Assembly (NCBI GenBank): GCA_025359785.1
Contig: JANYET010000068.1
Coordinates: 1 to 64,000, forward strand
DNA: 64,000 nucleotides
Direction: 5' to 3'
Origin: Alphaproteobacteria bacterium
GTDB taxonomy: Bacteria; Pseudomonadota; Alphaproteobacteria; Caulobacterales; Caulobacteraceae
Below are positions 26,600 to 50,895 of this stretch, one piece after another. Numbering within the stretch: position 1 is the first letter of the stretch; every line of letters starts with the position of its first letter. A program made the translations under genes and the position numbers. The notes below the pieces were generated by a model. The model was not told where the DNA came from. It saw nothing but the letters and a program-made list of their open reading frames with translations, and searched no databases.

Positions 26600-26616
26600 G
26601 ACGAAGACCAGAAAAT

Positions 26617-26639
26617 CCTCCTCCACTTGCGGGAGGAGG
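26617..26639 (+). terminator. Possible weak terminator hairpin after pepN
   Basis: The 8-bp perfect stem CCTCCTCC (26617-26624) / GGAGGAGG (26632-26639) has a 7-nt loop and lies 17 bp after the pepN stop. No T-run follows on the plus strand, so termination is uncertain. The sequence also resembles common dispersed intergenic palindromes. Confidence 0.35.
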
Positions 26640-26756
26640 GCGCGCGGGATCTGAATGTCGATTGGTCCCACTAGCCATCGCGGACGGGGAGAGCGAAACT
26701 ACGACCAACGCTCCGCAACGTGCAGCCAGAGAGCGAAAGCCCAGGAGGACGATGCG

Positions 26757-27785
26757 ATGACCAGAAGCCTGATATCCGCGGCCGCGATCCTGGCAGCGCT
26801 GCTCGCCGCCCCAGCCTTCGCCCAACCCCAGCCCCATGCCACCGCATCCACCGCCCTGGCGCGCAATTTCGACGGCGTCTGGACCAACGCCACCGTGACC
26901 CGGCTGGAGCGGCCGGCGATGTTCTCCCAGCTTGTCGTCGCGAAGGAACAGGCCGACGCGGTGGCGAAGGCGACGACCGCCCGTCTCGCCGTGGCGAACG
27001 GGACCTCGGACCTCAGCAAGGGCGCCTTCAAGGATGAGGACGCCACGGCCGGCTACAATTCCTACTGGATCGATTCCGGCGACGGGCTGATGCGCGTCCG
27101 CGGGCAAGCGCGGTCCTCTTTCATCACCAGCCCCGCCGATGGGAAGATGCCGTTCCGCGATCGCGCGAAAAGCCTCGCGCTGACCATCCGCGACGGCGCC
27201 GAGTATCAGTCCGGCAAAGGCGCCTACGTCGGGCCGGAGGATCTGCCGCTCCGTGAGCGTTGCCTGATCGCCCAGAGCGACGCCGGCGGGCCGGTCATGC
27301 TCAACGCGATCTACAACAACAACTACAGCTTCGTCGTGACGCCCGGCTATTTCGTGATCGACCTGGAGATGAACCACGACGTGCGCATCGCCCCGATCTT
27401 CGCGTCGGCGACAAAGGCCCGCGCGTCGCACCTGCCCGCCAGCATCCGGCCCTGGTTGGGCGACACGGTGGCCTGGTGGGACGGCGACACCCTGGTCACC
27501 GAGACGAAGAACGTGAACCCCATTCAGGAGGGGCGCACTCTGACGCCCGTTTCAGCCCAGGGCACGGTGACCGAACGGTTCACGCGGATCGCCAAAGGCG
27601 AGCTGCTCTATCAGTTCACGGTCAACGATCCGGCGCATTACACCCAGGCCTGGTCGGGCGAGTATGCCTTCAAGCCCGCCAAGGGCCAGATCTACGAATA
27701 CGCCTGCCACGAAGGCAACTACGCCATGGAAGGCATCCTCCGCGGCGCCCGCCTCAAGCAGGCGGCGGCAAAAAGCGGAGACTGA
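26757..27785 (+). CDS. Exported protein of unknown function
   Basis: I do not recognise a named family. The 342-residue protein begins with a clear signal peptide (SLISAAAILAALLAAPAFA) and should be periplasmic. Notable blocks are NFDGVWTN just after the signal, ADGKMPFRDRAK, the WWDGDTLVTETKN strand near the centre, and the C-terminal YEYACHEGNYAMEG. The many aromatic and Gly/Asp turns suggest a beta-rich, lipocalin- or propeller-like fold, but this is only a guess. A strong AGGAGG ribosome site lies 8 nt before the ATG. It is followed by a 7-bp hairpin at 27786-27806 and then by the MotA/MotB-like pair on the same strand. Confidence 0.75.
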   Translation: MTRSLISAAAILAALLAAPAFAQPQPHATASTALARNFDGVWTNATVTRLERPAMFSQLVVAKEQADAVAKATTARLAVANGTSDLSKGAFKDEDATAGYNSYWIDSGDGLMRVRGQARSSFITSPADGKMPFRDRAKSLALTIRDGAEYQSGKGAYVGPEDLPLRERCLIAQSDAGGPVMLNAIYNNNYSFVVTPGYFVIDLEMNHDVRIAPIFASATKARASHLPASIRPWLGDTVAWWDGDTLVTETKNVNPIQEGRTLTPVSAQGTVTERFTRIAKGELLYQFTVNDPAHYTQAWSGEYAFKPAKGQIYEYACHEGNYAMEGILRGARLKQAAAKSGD

Positions 27786-27806
27786 TCGGGCGCCGCCAAC
27801 GCCCGA
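27786..27806 (+). terminator. Hairpin after the unknown exported gene
   Basis: TCGGGCG (27786-27792) pairs perfectly with CGCCCGA (27800-27806) around a 7-nt loop, starting one base after the stop codon. No T-run follows, so it may attenuate or protect the transcript and not fully terminate it. Confidence 0.4.
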
Positions 27807-27940
27807 AGCGCGTCGGTCGGAGATATTGCGGCCACGCTACAAGTAGGACATTCGCGGCTCACTGGACGGTGCGTTGTAGCTGAACGCGGGCGGGCGGGGG
27901 TCCAGCCGAACATAGCTCGGCGCGATTGGGGGAAGCATTC

Positions 27941-28870
27941 GTGGATATAGCTAGATTATTTGCGTCCAGTTCATTTCTGTATATCTATTCTGGACTACTG
28001 GTTTTACTGACGGTCTCTGCAATTATTCGGAATCATATTTCGATAATCTCGGAAATCCAAGTCTCTCGCGACATCACCGGGCTTGTCGATGCCGCCCAGT
28101 TCCTTGAGTCTGACGGCAAGGTGGCACAGCTCCTTCTGCTGAATGAGTCCACGGGCGCTCGCATTCTCACGCATGAGGCGTGCCGCAGCGACGACCTTGG
28201 GGAACACAAGGTCTGGCGGAACCCTAAATCCGCAACCGCGAGGGCGACCGCCAGCTATCTGGGCGTGATGGCGGCCGTCCCTGCGGCGCGCCACAGTCTT
28301 GAAGGCCTGCGCCCCGCAAGGACGATGCTGGAGGACGAGTACCGTCGGCTTCACAAGGGCCTGAGCGGCTTTGGCGACTTCATTATCCGCGTGGCGCTGC
28401 TCGGCACATTCATGGGCCTCATCGCCGCGCTGACGATCGCCAGTGCGAACATCGGCGCCGCCCAGGGATCGGCCGAGGTCCAAAGCGCGCACATGCGGGA
28501 CTTCATCCAGGTCCTGCTGGCGACGGCCGCCAACAAGTTCTGGATTTCCGCCGTCGGCGTCGGTTGCGCCTTGATCGTGCAGATCTATCGGTCCAGCTCG
28601 GAGCGCGCTCAGCACATCGTGCGCCTTGGAGACGCCTTCGACCATGCGCTCACCGAGCCCACCACCGCCGCCGCCTGGTGCCCACCGGACCCCAGCCTGG
28701 CCGGCCAGGAGCACATCGACCTAAGGTTCATGAGGGAGGCCATCTTCGATCGGATATCGAAGCTGGATCTGGAGCCTCTCAACGCGGCGATCGCCGACAC
28801 GGCCGCGGCCATCAAGGCCAACGCGAAGGACTCCGTCATCTCGTTTGGACCGCGGCGGAGCGCGGAGTGA
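27941..28870 (+). CDS. MotA/TolQ/ExbB-like membrane channel protein (ZorA-like)
   Basis: The 309-residue protein has three membrane segments: residues 11-30, 147-169 and 188-216. A ~115-residue cytoplasmic stretch lies between the first and second, and a ~90-residue tail follows. The second and third segments carry the MotA/TolQ/ExbB pattern (VALLGTFMGLIAAL, then IQVLLATAANKFWISAVGVG), the part that forms the proton path. It lacks the long tail of Zorya ZorA and the flagellar MotA regulatory loop. The GTG at 27941 is preferred over a TTG at 27926 because GGGGGA lies 7 nt before it. The first ~110 bases are strikingly AT-rich compared with neighbours, suggesting transfer. The gene shares TGATG with its MotB-like partner. 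Confidence 0.72.
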   Translation: MDIARLFASSSFLYIYSGLLVLLTVSAIIRNHISIISEIQVSRDITGLVDAAQFLESDGKVAQLLLLNESTGARILTHEACRSDDLGEHKVWRNPKSATARATASYLGVMAAVPAARHSLEGLRPARTMLEDEYRRLHKGLSGFGDFIIRVALLGTFMGLIAALTIASANIGAAQGSAEVQSAHMRDFIQVLLATAANKFWISAVGVGCALIVQIYRSSSERAQHIVRLGDAFDHALTEPTTAAAWCPPDPSLAGQEHIDLRFMREAIFDRISKLDLEPLNAAIADTAAAIKANAKDSVISFGPRRSAE

Positions 28871-29541
28871 TGCCTGGACGGTTGCGGCGACGCGGCGGTT
28901 CCATGGAGCGGGCGGACGATGAAGGACCGTTCGTGTCGTTCACCGACCTGTTCATCGGGATCCTGTTTCTGTTCCTGATCCTGGTGGCCGCGCTCATGCT
29001 GATGCACCAGGAGGCCATCCAAAGGCAAAAGACTGAAGTTCAGGTCCTGTCGGAGCGGATTCAGCAGGTGGAGGCCCAGCGCGATGCGGCCCCGAAACGA
29101 CCGCCCGACCAGCCGGCGTTCCGCCTGGGCATCGTCTTCAATATCTACCAGCGCGCGGCTGTTTTTGACGGTGGCGGCTGGACCTATTCCCGCACGGTTC
29201 GCGTTTTCCGGTCGCCCGATGGGCTCTGCATCAACACCGTGTGGATGCGGAGCAACCTGACGACAGCCTGGAGGCCCCCGACACCTTCGGACGATATTCC
29301 CACCGACGCCCAGCCAGATCTCTTCCGGAAGTTCGAACCGTGCGGACTTTCCGCCGCAGGCGACCAATGGGACTCGCCCTCGGAGACAGGCAAACTCACG
29401 CGTATAACACCGATTATATACAGTGGTTTTGCAGTATTGCATAAGAAAGAAGGAGATGAGAAGCTTGAGATGCAATATAGAGTCCTAGGCGTGTATGATG
29501 ATTATTTTCTCTACCCCACGTCTTCAGCGCGGCCAGGATAG
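28870..29541 (+). CDS. MotB-like single-span partner protein without OmpA domain
   Basis: The 223-residue protein has a short cytoplasmic N terminus and one membrane span at residues 26-46. The span begins with an aspartate (VSFTDLFIGILFLFLIL), as in the proton-carrying Asp of MotB, ExbD and ZorB. A short coiled-coil-like segment (IQRQKTEVQVLSERIQQVEAQ) follows, then a ~150-residue extracytoplasmic domain I cannot assign. The peptidoglycan-binding OmpA domain of MotB and ZorB is absent. The start at 28870 overlaps the previous stop by one base, with GGAG 9 nt upstream; an ATG at 28903 is an alternative. The last ~130 bases are AT-rich. It most likely forms a stator-like complex with its neighbour. 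Confidence 0.7.
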   Translation: MPGRLRRRGGSMERADDEGPFVSFTDLFIGILFLFLILVAALMLMHQEAIQRQKTEVQVLSERIQQVEAQRDAAPKRPPDQPAFRLGIVFNIYQRAAVFDGGGWTYSRTVRVFRSPDGLCINTVWMRSNLTTAWRPPTPSDDIPTDAQPDLFRKFEPCGLSAAGDQWDSPSETGKLTRITPIIYSGFAVLHKKEGDEKLEMQYRVLGVYDDYFLYPTSSARPG

Positions 29542-29560
29542 CCATGGCGACGATGAAACT

Positions 29561-30784
29561 ATGAAACCCGCTCTCGCACTCTTGGTTTGCTGTGGCGCGA
29601 TCGCCCTGGCCTTCGCCGCCCTCGGCCAACCCGCGGCGCCGCAAAACGCCGGTGGCGCCCCCAAGGCCGCGGGGGTGGACTCAGCGACCGAGCGGGGCTT
29701 GGCCGCGGCGCGCGACTACCATCCGCCCCAGGGCATCGCCTTCAGGGCCGCTGACTTCATCAGCGAGAACGTGCGCCTGACGGCCCAGTGGTTCTATGCC
29801 CCAAAGAGCGAAGGGGAGAACGAGGGCCGCAAGCTGCCCACGGTCATCATCGCGAACGGCTGGGGCGGCACGGCCGCGAGCCTTCGCCAGGACGCCGTCG
29901 ACCTGGCGCGCGCCGGCTACTTGGTCATGCTGTTCGATTACCGCGGCTGGGGCGACAGCGACGGCCGGGTGATGCTCACGAGCCCGCAATCCAAGCCAGG
30001 GGGCCCCGCTGCGGGCGGGACGTTCACGGCGCAGCTCCGCGAGCTCCGCGGGTATGTCGATCCCTGGGAGCAGGTCGAGGACTGGTTCAACGCCATCAGC
30101 TACGCGGCAGCCGATCCCATGGTCGACGCCGGCCGCATCGGCGTGCTCGGCTACGACCTGTCCGGGGGCCACGTCATCGACCTCGCGGCGCACGAGCCGA
30201 GGGTCAAGGCGTTGGTCAGCCAGGTGACCCGGGCCGATACCCGCCCCGTCAAGCCCTACGAGCCGGACCCCGCCAGGGTGATCGCCGACGCCAACACCCA
30301 GGCTTCGCGCCTCGCAACCGGCGGCCAAGCCAGCGCCCGGATCGGCGCGCCTGTGGGCAATAAGGTCGTGCGCTGGGCGCCGGTGGAACAGGCGAACCAG
30401 GTAACCGCGCCAGCGTTGTTCGTCCTGGCGCAGAAGGAAGAGCTGTTCTCCAACACCTACAACGGCCAGTTGGCCTGCGAGCGGGTTACGGGGCCGCGTA
30501 AGATGGTGATGTTCCCCAACATCACCCACGACGGCGTCTACGGCGCCGAACGGCAGCGGGCGATCACCGCCGCCATCGACTGGTTCGACCGCTACCTGAA
30601 GCCCCCTGACCTGAAGTCCCCTGACCTGAAATCAGGCGGCCCGCCGACCCGGTCGCCCATCAACAGCAAGGAACCCGAGCGCGGCGAGTGCAACCCCCCG
30701 CCCTTGCCGCCGGCGGGTGAGGAGGAAAAGACCGGCAGCGGACAGGGACACAAGGCGCAGGCCACCTCCGGCCGCTTCAACTGA
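29561..30784 (+). CDS. Exported alpha/beta hydrolase with aspartate at the nucleophile elbow
   Basis: The 407-residue protein has a signal peptide (ALALLVCCGAIALAFAALGQ) and an alpha/beta hydrolase core: oxyanion-strand IIANGWGG near 96-103, LFDYRGWGDSDG (124-135) and the elbow GYDLSGGH (197-204). In related hydrolases the elbow reads G-x-S-Y-S-G-G-H, so Asp199 replaces the usual serine. Asp nucleophiles occur in dehalogenases and epoxide hydrolases, so activity may be altered rather than lost. The catalytic histidine is probably in FPNITHDGVYG. The last ~55 residues are Pro/Gly/Lys-rich, begin with a duplicated PDLKS and look like translated non-coding DNA. It follows the MotB-like gene by 19 bp. 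Confidence 0.78.
   Translation: MKPALALLVCCGAIALAFAALGQPAAPQNAGGAPKAAGVDSATERGLAAARDYHPPQGIAFRAADFISENVRLTAQWFYAPKSEGENEGRKLPTVIIANGWGGTAASLRQDAVDLARAGYLVMLFDYRGWGDSDGRVMLTSPQSKPGGPAAGGTFTAQLRELRGYVDPWEQVEDWFNAISYAAADPMVDAGRIGVLGYDLSGGHVIDLAAHEPRVKALVSQVTRADTRPVKPYEPDPARVIADANTQASRLATGGQASARIGAPVGNKVVRWAPVEQANQVTAPALFVLAQKEELFSNTYNGQLACERVTGPRKMVMFPNITHDGVYGAERQRAITAAIDWFDRYLKPPDLKSPDLKSGGPPTRSPINSKEPERGECNPPPLPPAGEEEKTGSGQGHKAQATSGRFN
30603..30632. repeat. Two-unit 15-bp tandem repeat at the hydrolase 3' end
   Basis: CCCCTGACCTGAAGT at 30603-30617 is followed directly by CCCCTGACCTGAAAT. The repeat encodes the PDLKS duplication that marks the start of the low-complexity tail of the alpha/beta hydrolase. 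It preserves the frame. Confidence 0.8.
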
Positions 30785-31044
30785 CGTGCAGCGGGGGAAT
30801 GAAGGGCGGCCTCGTGCGCATCTCGAGTTCCCAGGCACCCAATGGCTGGACAGGTAATCCTGTCCCCCAATTTCGCCAATTTCGAGCCTCCCCGCCCACG
30901 ACCCCGATCCACCATAAAATTTGGCGTGAGCGATATGGGCGAAGCGGCACAATTCGCCGCCGAATGGCGGTGACGCTGTTTACCCTTCCAGCTTAGAGTC
31001 CGCGGCGGTCGGGGTGATTTGCCCCGCAGTGGGAGCGGCGAGCC

Positions 31045-49966: not shown

Positions 49967-50242
49967 CTACCCGAATAGCTCGCTGTGTGAGCCAATCCGC
50001 AGCAACTCAATTGCCGTCTTCGTCTTACGATAAATCAGCACGAGATCGGGCTTGAGGTGGCAGTCTCGGCAGCCTTTCCAGTCACCCTTTAGGGGGTGAT
50101 CCTTGTTCGAGATTGGCAGGGTCCCCTTATTCACGAGCAGGTCCGTCGCCGCTTTGAAGACAGCGTCTAGGTCTGCGTGCTGTCCCGCCTTTTCGCGCTT
50201 GTAGTCACGTTTGAATTGGCCGGTGATTTTGAGGGTCAGCAT
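49967..50242 (-). CDS. YafQ-family type II toxin (mRNA interferase)
   Basis: The 91-residue protein matches YafQ over its full length. All four catalytic residues are present at nearly identical positions: His49 (DHPLKGDW), His62 and Asp66 (CHLKPDLVLIYR) and His86 (IGSHSELFG). YafQ cleaves mRNA on the ribosome when released from its antitoxin DinJ. The usual upstream overlapping dinJ is missing. Instead the ATG overlaps the stop of an unrelated 217-residue gene (TAATG), implying coupled translation. A DinJ-like antitoxin lies 1.06 kb away on the opposite strand. Confidence 0.92.
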   Translation of the reverse strand: MLTLKITGQFKRDYKREKAGQHADLDAVFKAATDLLVNKGTLPISNKDHPLKGDWKGCRDCHLKPDLVLIYRKTKTAIELLRIGSHSELFG

Positions 50243-50895
50243 TAGCCACCCTCGGTTTCAGAGGTTGGGGGCGCAGGAGACACGGCAGGGAAACCGAAGA
50301 CATCGACTGCAGTCATCGGCGGAGGCGGTGAAACGAGCGGGGGCAGTGGAGGAGCAGGGGGCGGCGGAGCCGGAGGGGCGGGGAACATATCCATCGCCCC
50401 CACGTCCAGTGCCCGCTCGATCAAGGCTGAGTAGCTAGCTTCAGTCAGGCCCGGTGTCTTCTCGGCGTAGTGCCATTGCATGATGAGGTGCGGGTTGTGA
50501 ATCAGGGCGTAGGTTACCGGTCCAGACTTCCCAGCCTTGAGGTCGATGAACTGAAGCTCTTGGAGCTTCTTTATGCGGCCGACCCATGTGTGCTCGCCAC
50601 GCTGACCGCCAAAGCCCGACGCGTAGGCCATCTCGTCAGGCTTGATGTGCTGAACGAAGCCGTTGTCCCACGTCGAACACCACAGCGTCAGATAGGTAGA
50701 CGAGACCGGTGCTCCTTTCGTCATTTCATCCATGATCCGCAGGATGAGGGGCATCGTCTTCGGGATTGTCGCGAAGCCCTTATTGGCCAAGCGATGCCAG
50801 AGGTTCGGCCCCATGCCGGGCCACAACTGCTCCCTGAGAGCTAGCTGCTTTTTGGCGATCACCCCGCCTTCCCGAACTGAGACCATCGTCTTCAT
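50242..50895 (-). CDS. Unknown protein coupled to the YafQ toxin (possible winged-helix plus proline-rich tail)
   Basis: I do not recognise this 217-residue protein. Residues ~40-150 have the helix-helix-strand pattern of a winged-helix DNA-binding domain, as seen in some plasmid or phage replication and control proteins (LILRIMDEMTKGAPVSSTYL, WVGRIKKLQELQFIDLKAG, TYALIHNPHLI). The last ~50 residues are extremely proline-rich (FPAPPAPPPPAPPLPPL). A strong ribosome site GGAGGTGA lies just before the ATG. Its stop overlaps the toxin start (TAATG), so it occupies the position where the antitoxin gene normally sits. It may be a third component, a repressor of the locus or a replication remnant; none is proved. 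Confidence 0.6.
   Translation of the reverse strand: MKTMVSVREGGVIAKKQLALREQLWPGMGPNLWHRLANKGFATIPKTMPLILRIMDEMTKGAPVSSTYLTLWCSTWDNGFVQHIKPDEMAYASGFGGQRGEHTWVGRIKKLQELQFIDLKAGKSGPVTYALIHNPHLIMQWHYAEKTPGLTEASYSALIERALDVGAMDMFPAPPAPPPPAPPLPPLVSPPPPMTAVDVFGFPAVSPAPPTSETEGG

Follow-up and report, generated by a model that had tools for sequence, protein, structure and literature searches.

Interpretation of the 64,000-nucleotide stretch of DNA analyzed here (the window) revealed a compact cassette of three genes, in which a pair encoding a putative ion-driven stator (A and B) is followed by a gene encoding an alpha/beta-hydrolase-fold protein (H). Stator homology of A–B is well supported by sequence comparison. 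Moreover, the reading that A–B represents a 5:2-type ion-driven motor, with a domain acting on H substituted for the wall anchor, is given a probability just short of even. The initial annotation of this region had described a two-gene device and had missed the third gene, H (29561 to 30784, forward strand), which follows the pair in all nine carriers identified.

The A–B Pair Resembles Ion-Driven Stators

Gene A (27941 to 28870, forward strand) was classified as encoding a ZorA/MotA-like pore subunit based on its match to the PADLOC model ZorA1 (3.5e-10, residues 143–242), its profile alignment to genomic ZorA and its conservation in nine loci. In a profile-profile comparison with 10 genomic ZorA sequences of the same order, residues 146–258 were aligned (96.4%, E 1.1e-9). 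Scores for the NCBIfam models stayed far below the curated cut-off in the case of ZorA_1 (1.9e-5, 23.1 of the 190 bits needed) and below it for ZorA_2 (14.5 of the 100 bits needed), and the search against solved-structure sequences returned two chains only, both at chance level. An alternative start codon, TTG, is located upstream at 27926, with the stop end at 28870 for either start. Since GTG 27941 has a counterpart in nine of nine loci and the TTG position in four of nine, the former is the likelier start.

Within the alignment of nine sequences, residues 158–169 of A (LLGTFMGLIAAL) and most of residues 197–216 are invariant. Thr161 and Ser208, likewise invariant, align with Thr and Ser of genomic ZorA and may form the polar ring of the pore. 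Regarding the three membrane spans previously described for A, two were recovered by the hydropathy scan, whereas the third remained below the cut-off used and was placed by alignment to ZorA. The protein stops at residue 314, approximately 90 residues past its last span, and is devoid of a long tail; for comparison, full-length ZorA proteins in three relatives comprise 562–650 residues.

Gene B (28870 to 29541, forward strand) encodes a putative ZorB/MotB-like subunit, as deduced from its match to PADLOC ZorB1 (1.7e-8, residues 13–62) and from a profile-profile alignment to 11 genomic ZorB sequences of the same order, which covers residues 12–48 only. The score for the NCBIfam model ZorB1 was far below the curated cut-off (0.0052, 16.3 of the 400 bits needed). 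B is composed of a single membrane helix, a helical linker and an outer domain at approximately residues 83–213, which features two invariant cysteines. In agreement with the earlier description, the hydropathy scan detected one span in B, and Asp26 within this helix is invariant in nine sequences and aligns with the Asp of genomic ZorB. The outer domain, for which no assignment had been given, matched none of the families tested and did not align to OmpA-type ZorB; a predicted model of low confidence (pLDDT 48.7) suggests that it is mostly beta. Comparison of B with solved structures yielded 8vvn (0.055), 8qyd (0.095; titled Membrane protein), which is presumably a Zorya structure, and one unrelated chain (0.49). 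The first of these entries represents the Zorya I complex (PMC11890865).

For A and B, no matches to the MotA_ExbB, ExbD, MotB or OmpA families were obtained (Pfam, E up to 10; nine members of each, E up to 1), and a PF01618 profile search of the genome returned four other matches, A not among them. Of the families suggested for a profile check of the pair, ZorA and ZorB match and are the closest in the libraries searched, as the noted likeness to ZorA/ZorB had implied, whereas the MotA_ExbB, ExbD and MotB families do not match. These alignments show that the pore (A) and the Asp-bearing helix (B), unlike the outer domain that B carries, are common to ZorAB.

The two reading frames were found as described before, overlapping as TGATG in the window, and all nine loci retain an A/B overlap (1 or 4 nt), which agrees with the earlier view that the two genes are translated together. 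A survey of neighboring genes showed A and B to be adjacent in each of these loci, in line with the expectation that such pairs are kept together. Both genes are under purifying selection, with pN/pS values of 0.28 (A) and 0.34 (B). An A-type pore subunit and a single-span B with a membrane Asp are encoded together, which is the combination by which stators are recognized.

The GC content of the first 120 nt of A amounts to 38%, compared to 65% for the rest of the gene, and that of the last 130 nt of B to 42%, compared to 63% for its remainder. These AT-rich ends had been taken as a sign of import. The ends are AT-rich as reported, but both dips recur in all nine loci (33–58% at the start of A, 35–62% at the end of B) and are therefore part of the genes and not alone a sign of import; as proof of import, they were rejected.

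Upstream of A, a conserved leader element (27822 to 27875, forward strand) was aligned in five of the nine loci, with a weaker match in a sixth (G383). In relatives, it contains an imperfect palindrome (TAGGACA...TGTCCTA). The element is present in one copy in the genome at up to three mismatches (27844–27870). It possibly represents a regulatory site.

Gene H Encodes a Hydrolase-Fold Protein That Is Probably Exported

Gene H is located directly 3' of B in nine of nine loci, and its product exceeded the Pfam cut-offs for S15 (5.1e-9), DLH (2.3e-8), Hydrolase_4, Abhydrolase_1 and AXE1. The match to the NCBIfam model UilS (9.7e-24) reached 84.6 of the 400 bits needed and is thus far below the cut-off. 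Among solved structures, 14 chains of hydrolase type and others were matched, from 4.8e-13 down, including one titled putative epoxide hydrolase (8.2e-4). The N-terminus of H resembles a signal peptide, as read by eye and from a hydropathy scan, and is ambiguous in G808; H is probably exported.

The nucleophile position of H (Asp199 in the window) is occupied by Asp in all nine stator-linked copies and by Ser in all 18 unlinked relatives, the latter being defined as copies with no A match on the same contig in the order-sample and genus searches for A. In the H tree, which comprises 28 rows with one unlinked copy (G795, contig 229) present twice and thus 18 distinct unlinked sequences, the stator-linked copies form one clade (100/99). 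Glu293, Glu294 and His323 are invariant among the linked copies. Asp199, Glu293/294 and His323 line up as a putative Asp-nucleophile set; the family matches of H are to serine-hydrolase families. H could be either an Asp-nucleophile enzyme or a pseudoenzyme. Furthermore, the linked copies have a common C-terminal tail with SGRFN or SGRYN at its end, which is confined to the linked clade. Tail and core are constrained to the same degree (pN/pS 0.44 and 0.43, respectively), and H, like A and B, is under purifying selection. A His preceding Gly-Trp, in a segment which we take to be probably the oxyanion loop, is missing in eight of the nine linked copies and kept by the nearest unlinked relatives. 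In carrier G795, a further unlinked H relative (L092, 3134–4236; 66%) was observed, comprising two overlapping frames and featuring Ser at the nucleophile position.

The replacement of Ser in all linked copies, the loss of this His in most of them and a B protein without a recognized anchor of its own would also fit a dead hydrolase. Such a protein could act as a binding or anchoring piece replacing the peptidoglycan-binding domain, or as the opener of a non-rotating A–B ion channel. This explanation appears quite improbable, since the linked copies have retained Glu293, Glu294 and His323 without exception; moreover, for related pairs whose structures have been solved, a motor function is described (PMC11890865). 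The motor acting on H through the outer domain of B is kept as the preferred reading.

Distribution and Linkage of the Three Genes

Within the genus, A was detected in nine of 101 genomes (E up to 1e-5). In all nine carriers, at different sites, H is located directly downstream of B on the same strand, with a spacing of -4 to 121 nt and a 4-nt B/H overlap in one locus. Of this set of 101 genomes, 15 contain relatives of H (E up to 1e-20); linked copies with at least 70% identity are present in exactly the nine carriers, and the six other genomes reach at most 51%.

In the order sample, 23 of 398 genomes featured an A match (E up to 0.001), of which 20 were partial and three near full length, the latter belonging to this genome and two others of its genus. 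H was detected in 13 of these 398 genomes, including two 60% relatives in another family. The class sample yielded one A match at 1e-6 among 385 genomes, namely this genome. In the phylum sample, the B profile matched 20 of 299 genomes; in 19 of these, the match did not reach past profile position 82. No match for A was found among 72,556 plasmid records or among 50,697 phage records, and no relatives of B were confirmed in viral contigs. Furthermore, no H relative was detected at 51 loci encoding more distant stators, showing that the partnership of A–B with H is not general.

Insertion Site and Horizontal Transfer

The nine loci were compared pairwise with flanks of up to 6 kb (the right flank being limited by the contig end to 463 bases in G781, 420 in G808 and 230 in G335), which delimited a shared DNA block. 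It begins at most approximately 290 bases before A and ends at most 36 bases past H, or in one pair 60 bases before the end of H. Outside this block, three matches of 27–33 bases were obtained, in addition to a gene designated fam1 in the window and G798. The gene lists of the nine loci have no other family in common, and their visible flanks differ.

In the window, an inserted segment at approximately 26600 to 30943 (no strand assigned) holds fam1, A, B and H relative to an empty junction between pepN and a histidine kinase gene in relatives. The GlnE regions of ten relatives were compared, and the junction was visible in five (G383, G843, G808, G822 and G335); pepN adjoins the histidine kinase gene in all five, four of which carry the cassette elsewhere. 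The edges of the insert were derived from the junctions of G843, G808 and G383. No mobility genes were recognized in the segment, its repeats are few, short and imperfect, and promoter- and terminator-like sites occur at shuffled levels.

The product of the fam1 gene (26757–27785) begins like a signal peptide and has no Pfam or NCBIfam match. The position of fam1, before A in the window and after H in G798, resembles a circular permutation. As a fourth member of the cassette it was rejected, since its family is large (18 matches in the genome; 54 of 101 genus genomes at 1e-30, some in tandem rows), with close relatives (82–85%) off the cassette contigs in G335, G808, G383 and G843. It arrived with the inserted segment of the window and is not counted as part of the device.

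Two further observations concern other genes of the window and of a related locus. At 49967–50895, a YafQ-type toxin gene (Pfam 2.9e-30) overlaps the end of an upstream ORF of 217 residues, which has no Pfam match and is possibly an unusual antitoxin partner. In G799, an ordinary glycine riboswitch (L072, 12491–12599) precedes glycine-cleavage genes downstream of the cassette.

A GlnE tree was calculated for 28 of 30 genomes (G820 and G797 had no match, and the second GlnE piece of G819 was excluded), with 21 non-carriers chosen by hand. Seven of the nine carriers belong to one clade of nine genomes. G335 and G781 are placed outside, apart from the other seven carriers (100/100), and three changes of the carrier label are needed on this tree. 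In the A–B tree, G335 instead groups with G799 and G808 (100/99), and this conflict indicates transfer between lineages. Vertical descent alone, with which the clade of seven carriers fits in part, was rejected in view of the position of G335 and G781. Moreover, the H tree joins G781 with G808 (95/86) and G383 with G335 (94/92) and thus disagrees in part with the A–B tree, suggesting that H was swapped between cassettes while the architecture was kept. The claim that the pair had been imported is hence sustained by the empty site in relatives and by the tree conflict, and the comparisons imply that the A–B–H cassette as a whole spread horizontally.

The partial disagreement of the H and A–B trees, the variable B-to-H spacing and the existence of H relatives without stators raise the question of whether A–B and H merely travel together and have separate jobs. 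In that case, a small stator would be accompanied by an exported Asp-nucleophile hydrolase, resembling a dehalogenase or epoxide hydrolase, with its own substrate. This alternative is regarded as unlikely: order, strand and closeness of the genes are the same in all nine loci at different sites, and the change to Asp and the shared C-terminal tail are restricted to the linked clade. A functional connection between the motor and H is preferred.

Proposed Function of the Cassette

For the preferred reading, the following mechanism is proposed. A and B would assemble as a 5:2 motor in the inner membrane, akin to ZorAB and MotAB, with ions moving past Asp26 of B opposite polar residues in A. The periplasmic domain of B with its two conserved cysteines, present in place of the peptidoglycan-binding domain of ZorB/MotB, would engage H and is the natural candidate to hold this protein in the periplasm. 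The putatively exported H may have become dedicated to the motor, its nucleophile having changed from Ser to Asp. The motor would drive or gate a periplasmic protein that is enzyme-like or binds a ligand, with a role in an accessory envelope function and not in phage defense.

We infer the coupling of A–B to H from their constant linkage in nine loci of one genus. It is favored by the constancy of the A–B–H arrangement at different sites, where DNA similarity is essentially limited to the leader and A–B–H, and by the strict division of Asp and Ser between linked and unlinked copies of H. Against it stand the small number of loci, all from a single genus, the partial tree disagreement and the lack of H at the 51 distant stator loci. 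A contact between the two proteins draws no support from the predicted models of B and H (pLDDT 38.2 for H), whose quality is too low. A more specific version, namely a mobile motor of three genes in which the ion gradient is used to power a dedicated Asp-nucleophile hydrolase-fold enzyme, so that envelope chemistry beyond the inner membrane would be stator-driven or gated, is put forward tentatively and appears rather doubtful.

Roles named for 5:2 motors are motility, phage defense, type I secretion, membrane stabilization and nutrient import (PMC12204202). If the proposal is true, a motor with a replaced wall anchor and a hydrolase-fold partner would constitute a new kind of output for these machines. 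The Ser-to-Asp difference, present only in motor-linked copies, could sharply separate the interpretation of H as an enzyme from that as a coupling piece, and the compact three-gene unit could be transferred to a laboratory strain. Among the literature matches listed, no stator-plus-hydrolase cassette is described, which is weak evidence of absence with subscription papers and preprints outside the search; likewise, Zorya and dienelactone hydrolase were not found named together in the literature searched.

Genomic Context and Relation to Phage Defense

A link to defense had been suggested for the pair, and the closest library matches to ZorA and ZorB as well as the patchy, mobile distribution would be compatible with a divergent Zorya-type phage defense, H serving as the sensor or effector where Zorya has ZorC/D/E or ZorF/G. 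In order to evaluate the genomic context, 50 flank proteins from nine loci, chosen by hand and excluding short or doubtful ORFs, were scanned with PADLOC. The scan returned nine families with one protein each, and single rescans of 30 of the 50 proteins assigned eight of the nine families to five proteins. SduA (L070, 531–2510) and LmuB (L070, 5367–8477) were matched by proteins which are of signaling type by our reading, and the Csa3 and CasR models by what we read as a small regulator (L068, 8154–8486). C3a186 was matched at L070, 13895–15343. A partial mad2 match (2.8e-16) covers residues 297–457 of the protein encoded at L068, 4507–5934, and a type IIG restriction-methyltransferase model (4.6e-36) was matched by one protein among the 20 outside the single rescans. 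The latter two could be counted in favor of defense, whereas flank genes with Pfam names are mostly metabolic or signaling (first 25 of 100 families). The nine loci surveyed did not establish a defense context, the protein with the type IIG match being possibly a defense neighbor in one locus.

None of zorC/D, zorE or zorF/G was recognized among the 50 flank proteins of the nine loci, the flanks being cut by contig ends in three, and the previously noted absence of a long ZorA tail, of a recognizable OmpA domain and of an adjacent helicase or nuclease gene was borne out. Both the peptidoglycan-binding domain of ZorB and the cytoplasmic extension of ZorA are reported to be required for Zorya defense (PMC11890865), and ZorAB alone is reported to be insufficient (PMC8565338). 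With these two features absent, the suggested link to defense is left unsupported; H, moreover, appears to be exported and is not a nuclease. A defense role is thus considered very unlikely. Since A–B have neither the ZorA tail nor a wall-binding domain, the notion that the pair works like a 5:2 motor was kept and its designation as a Zorya system was dropped; from its sequence, A–B–H is unlikely to represent such a system.

Comparison with Known Systems

The cassette shares with ZorA/ZorB of Zorya types I–III the pore segment of A, the Asp helix of B and the order of the overlapping genes with A before B. It differs in the missing ZorA tail and OmpA-type outer domain, in the absence of adjacent ZorC/D/E/F/G and in the exported-looking hydrolase-fold protein encoded beside A–B. 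Short ZorAB-like pairs of the same order (L029, L030, L031, L032, L033, L036 and L038) are similar in having a short A of 233–282 residues and no zorC/D in the neighboring genes read. Their B, however, retains the OmpA-type outer domain, and no H relative was found at those loci. Three of these pairs, each combining a short ZorA-like with an OmpA-type ZorB-like protein, originate from genomes of the same family (L029, 9058–10706; L033, 8724–10378; L036, 8904–10537). Their flanks are alike, with an aminotransferase gene on one side, a transporter gene on the other and no zorC/D beside them, and they represent a stable, probably non-defense stator pair.

By analogy, the multi-span A and the single-span, Asp-bearing B also resemble MotAB, TolQR and ExbBD, but without a Pfam match to MotA_ExbB, ExbD or MotB. 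Generic ion transporters are non-flagellar stators with varied appended domains of unknown function (PMC12505986); the extra domains on such stators recall the cassette, whereas a hydrolase is nowhere mentioned (0 occurrences) in the available text of that source. The flagellar stator protein MotB2 acts with the periplasmic partner proteins MotK and MotE (PMC10954123) and thereby offers a parallel for the idea of dedicated periplasmic stator partners, the difference being its flagellar function.

Regarding H, likeness to UilS, dienelactone hydrolase and S15 concerns the fold family and the positions of the acid and His residues. In contrast to these proteins, H features Asp at the nucleophile position, a signal-peptide-like start and an extra C-terminal tail. 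For UilS from Serratia, acyl-homoserine lactonase activity, an alpha/beta fold and a cytoplasmic location are described (PMC11633161), whereas H appears to be an exported protein.
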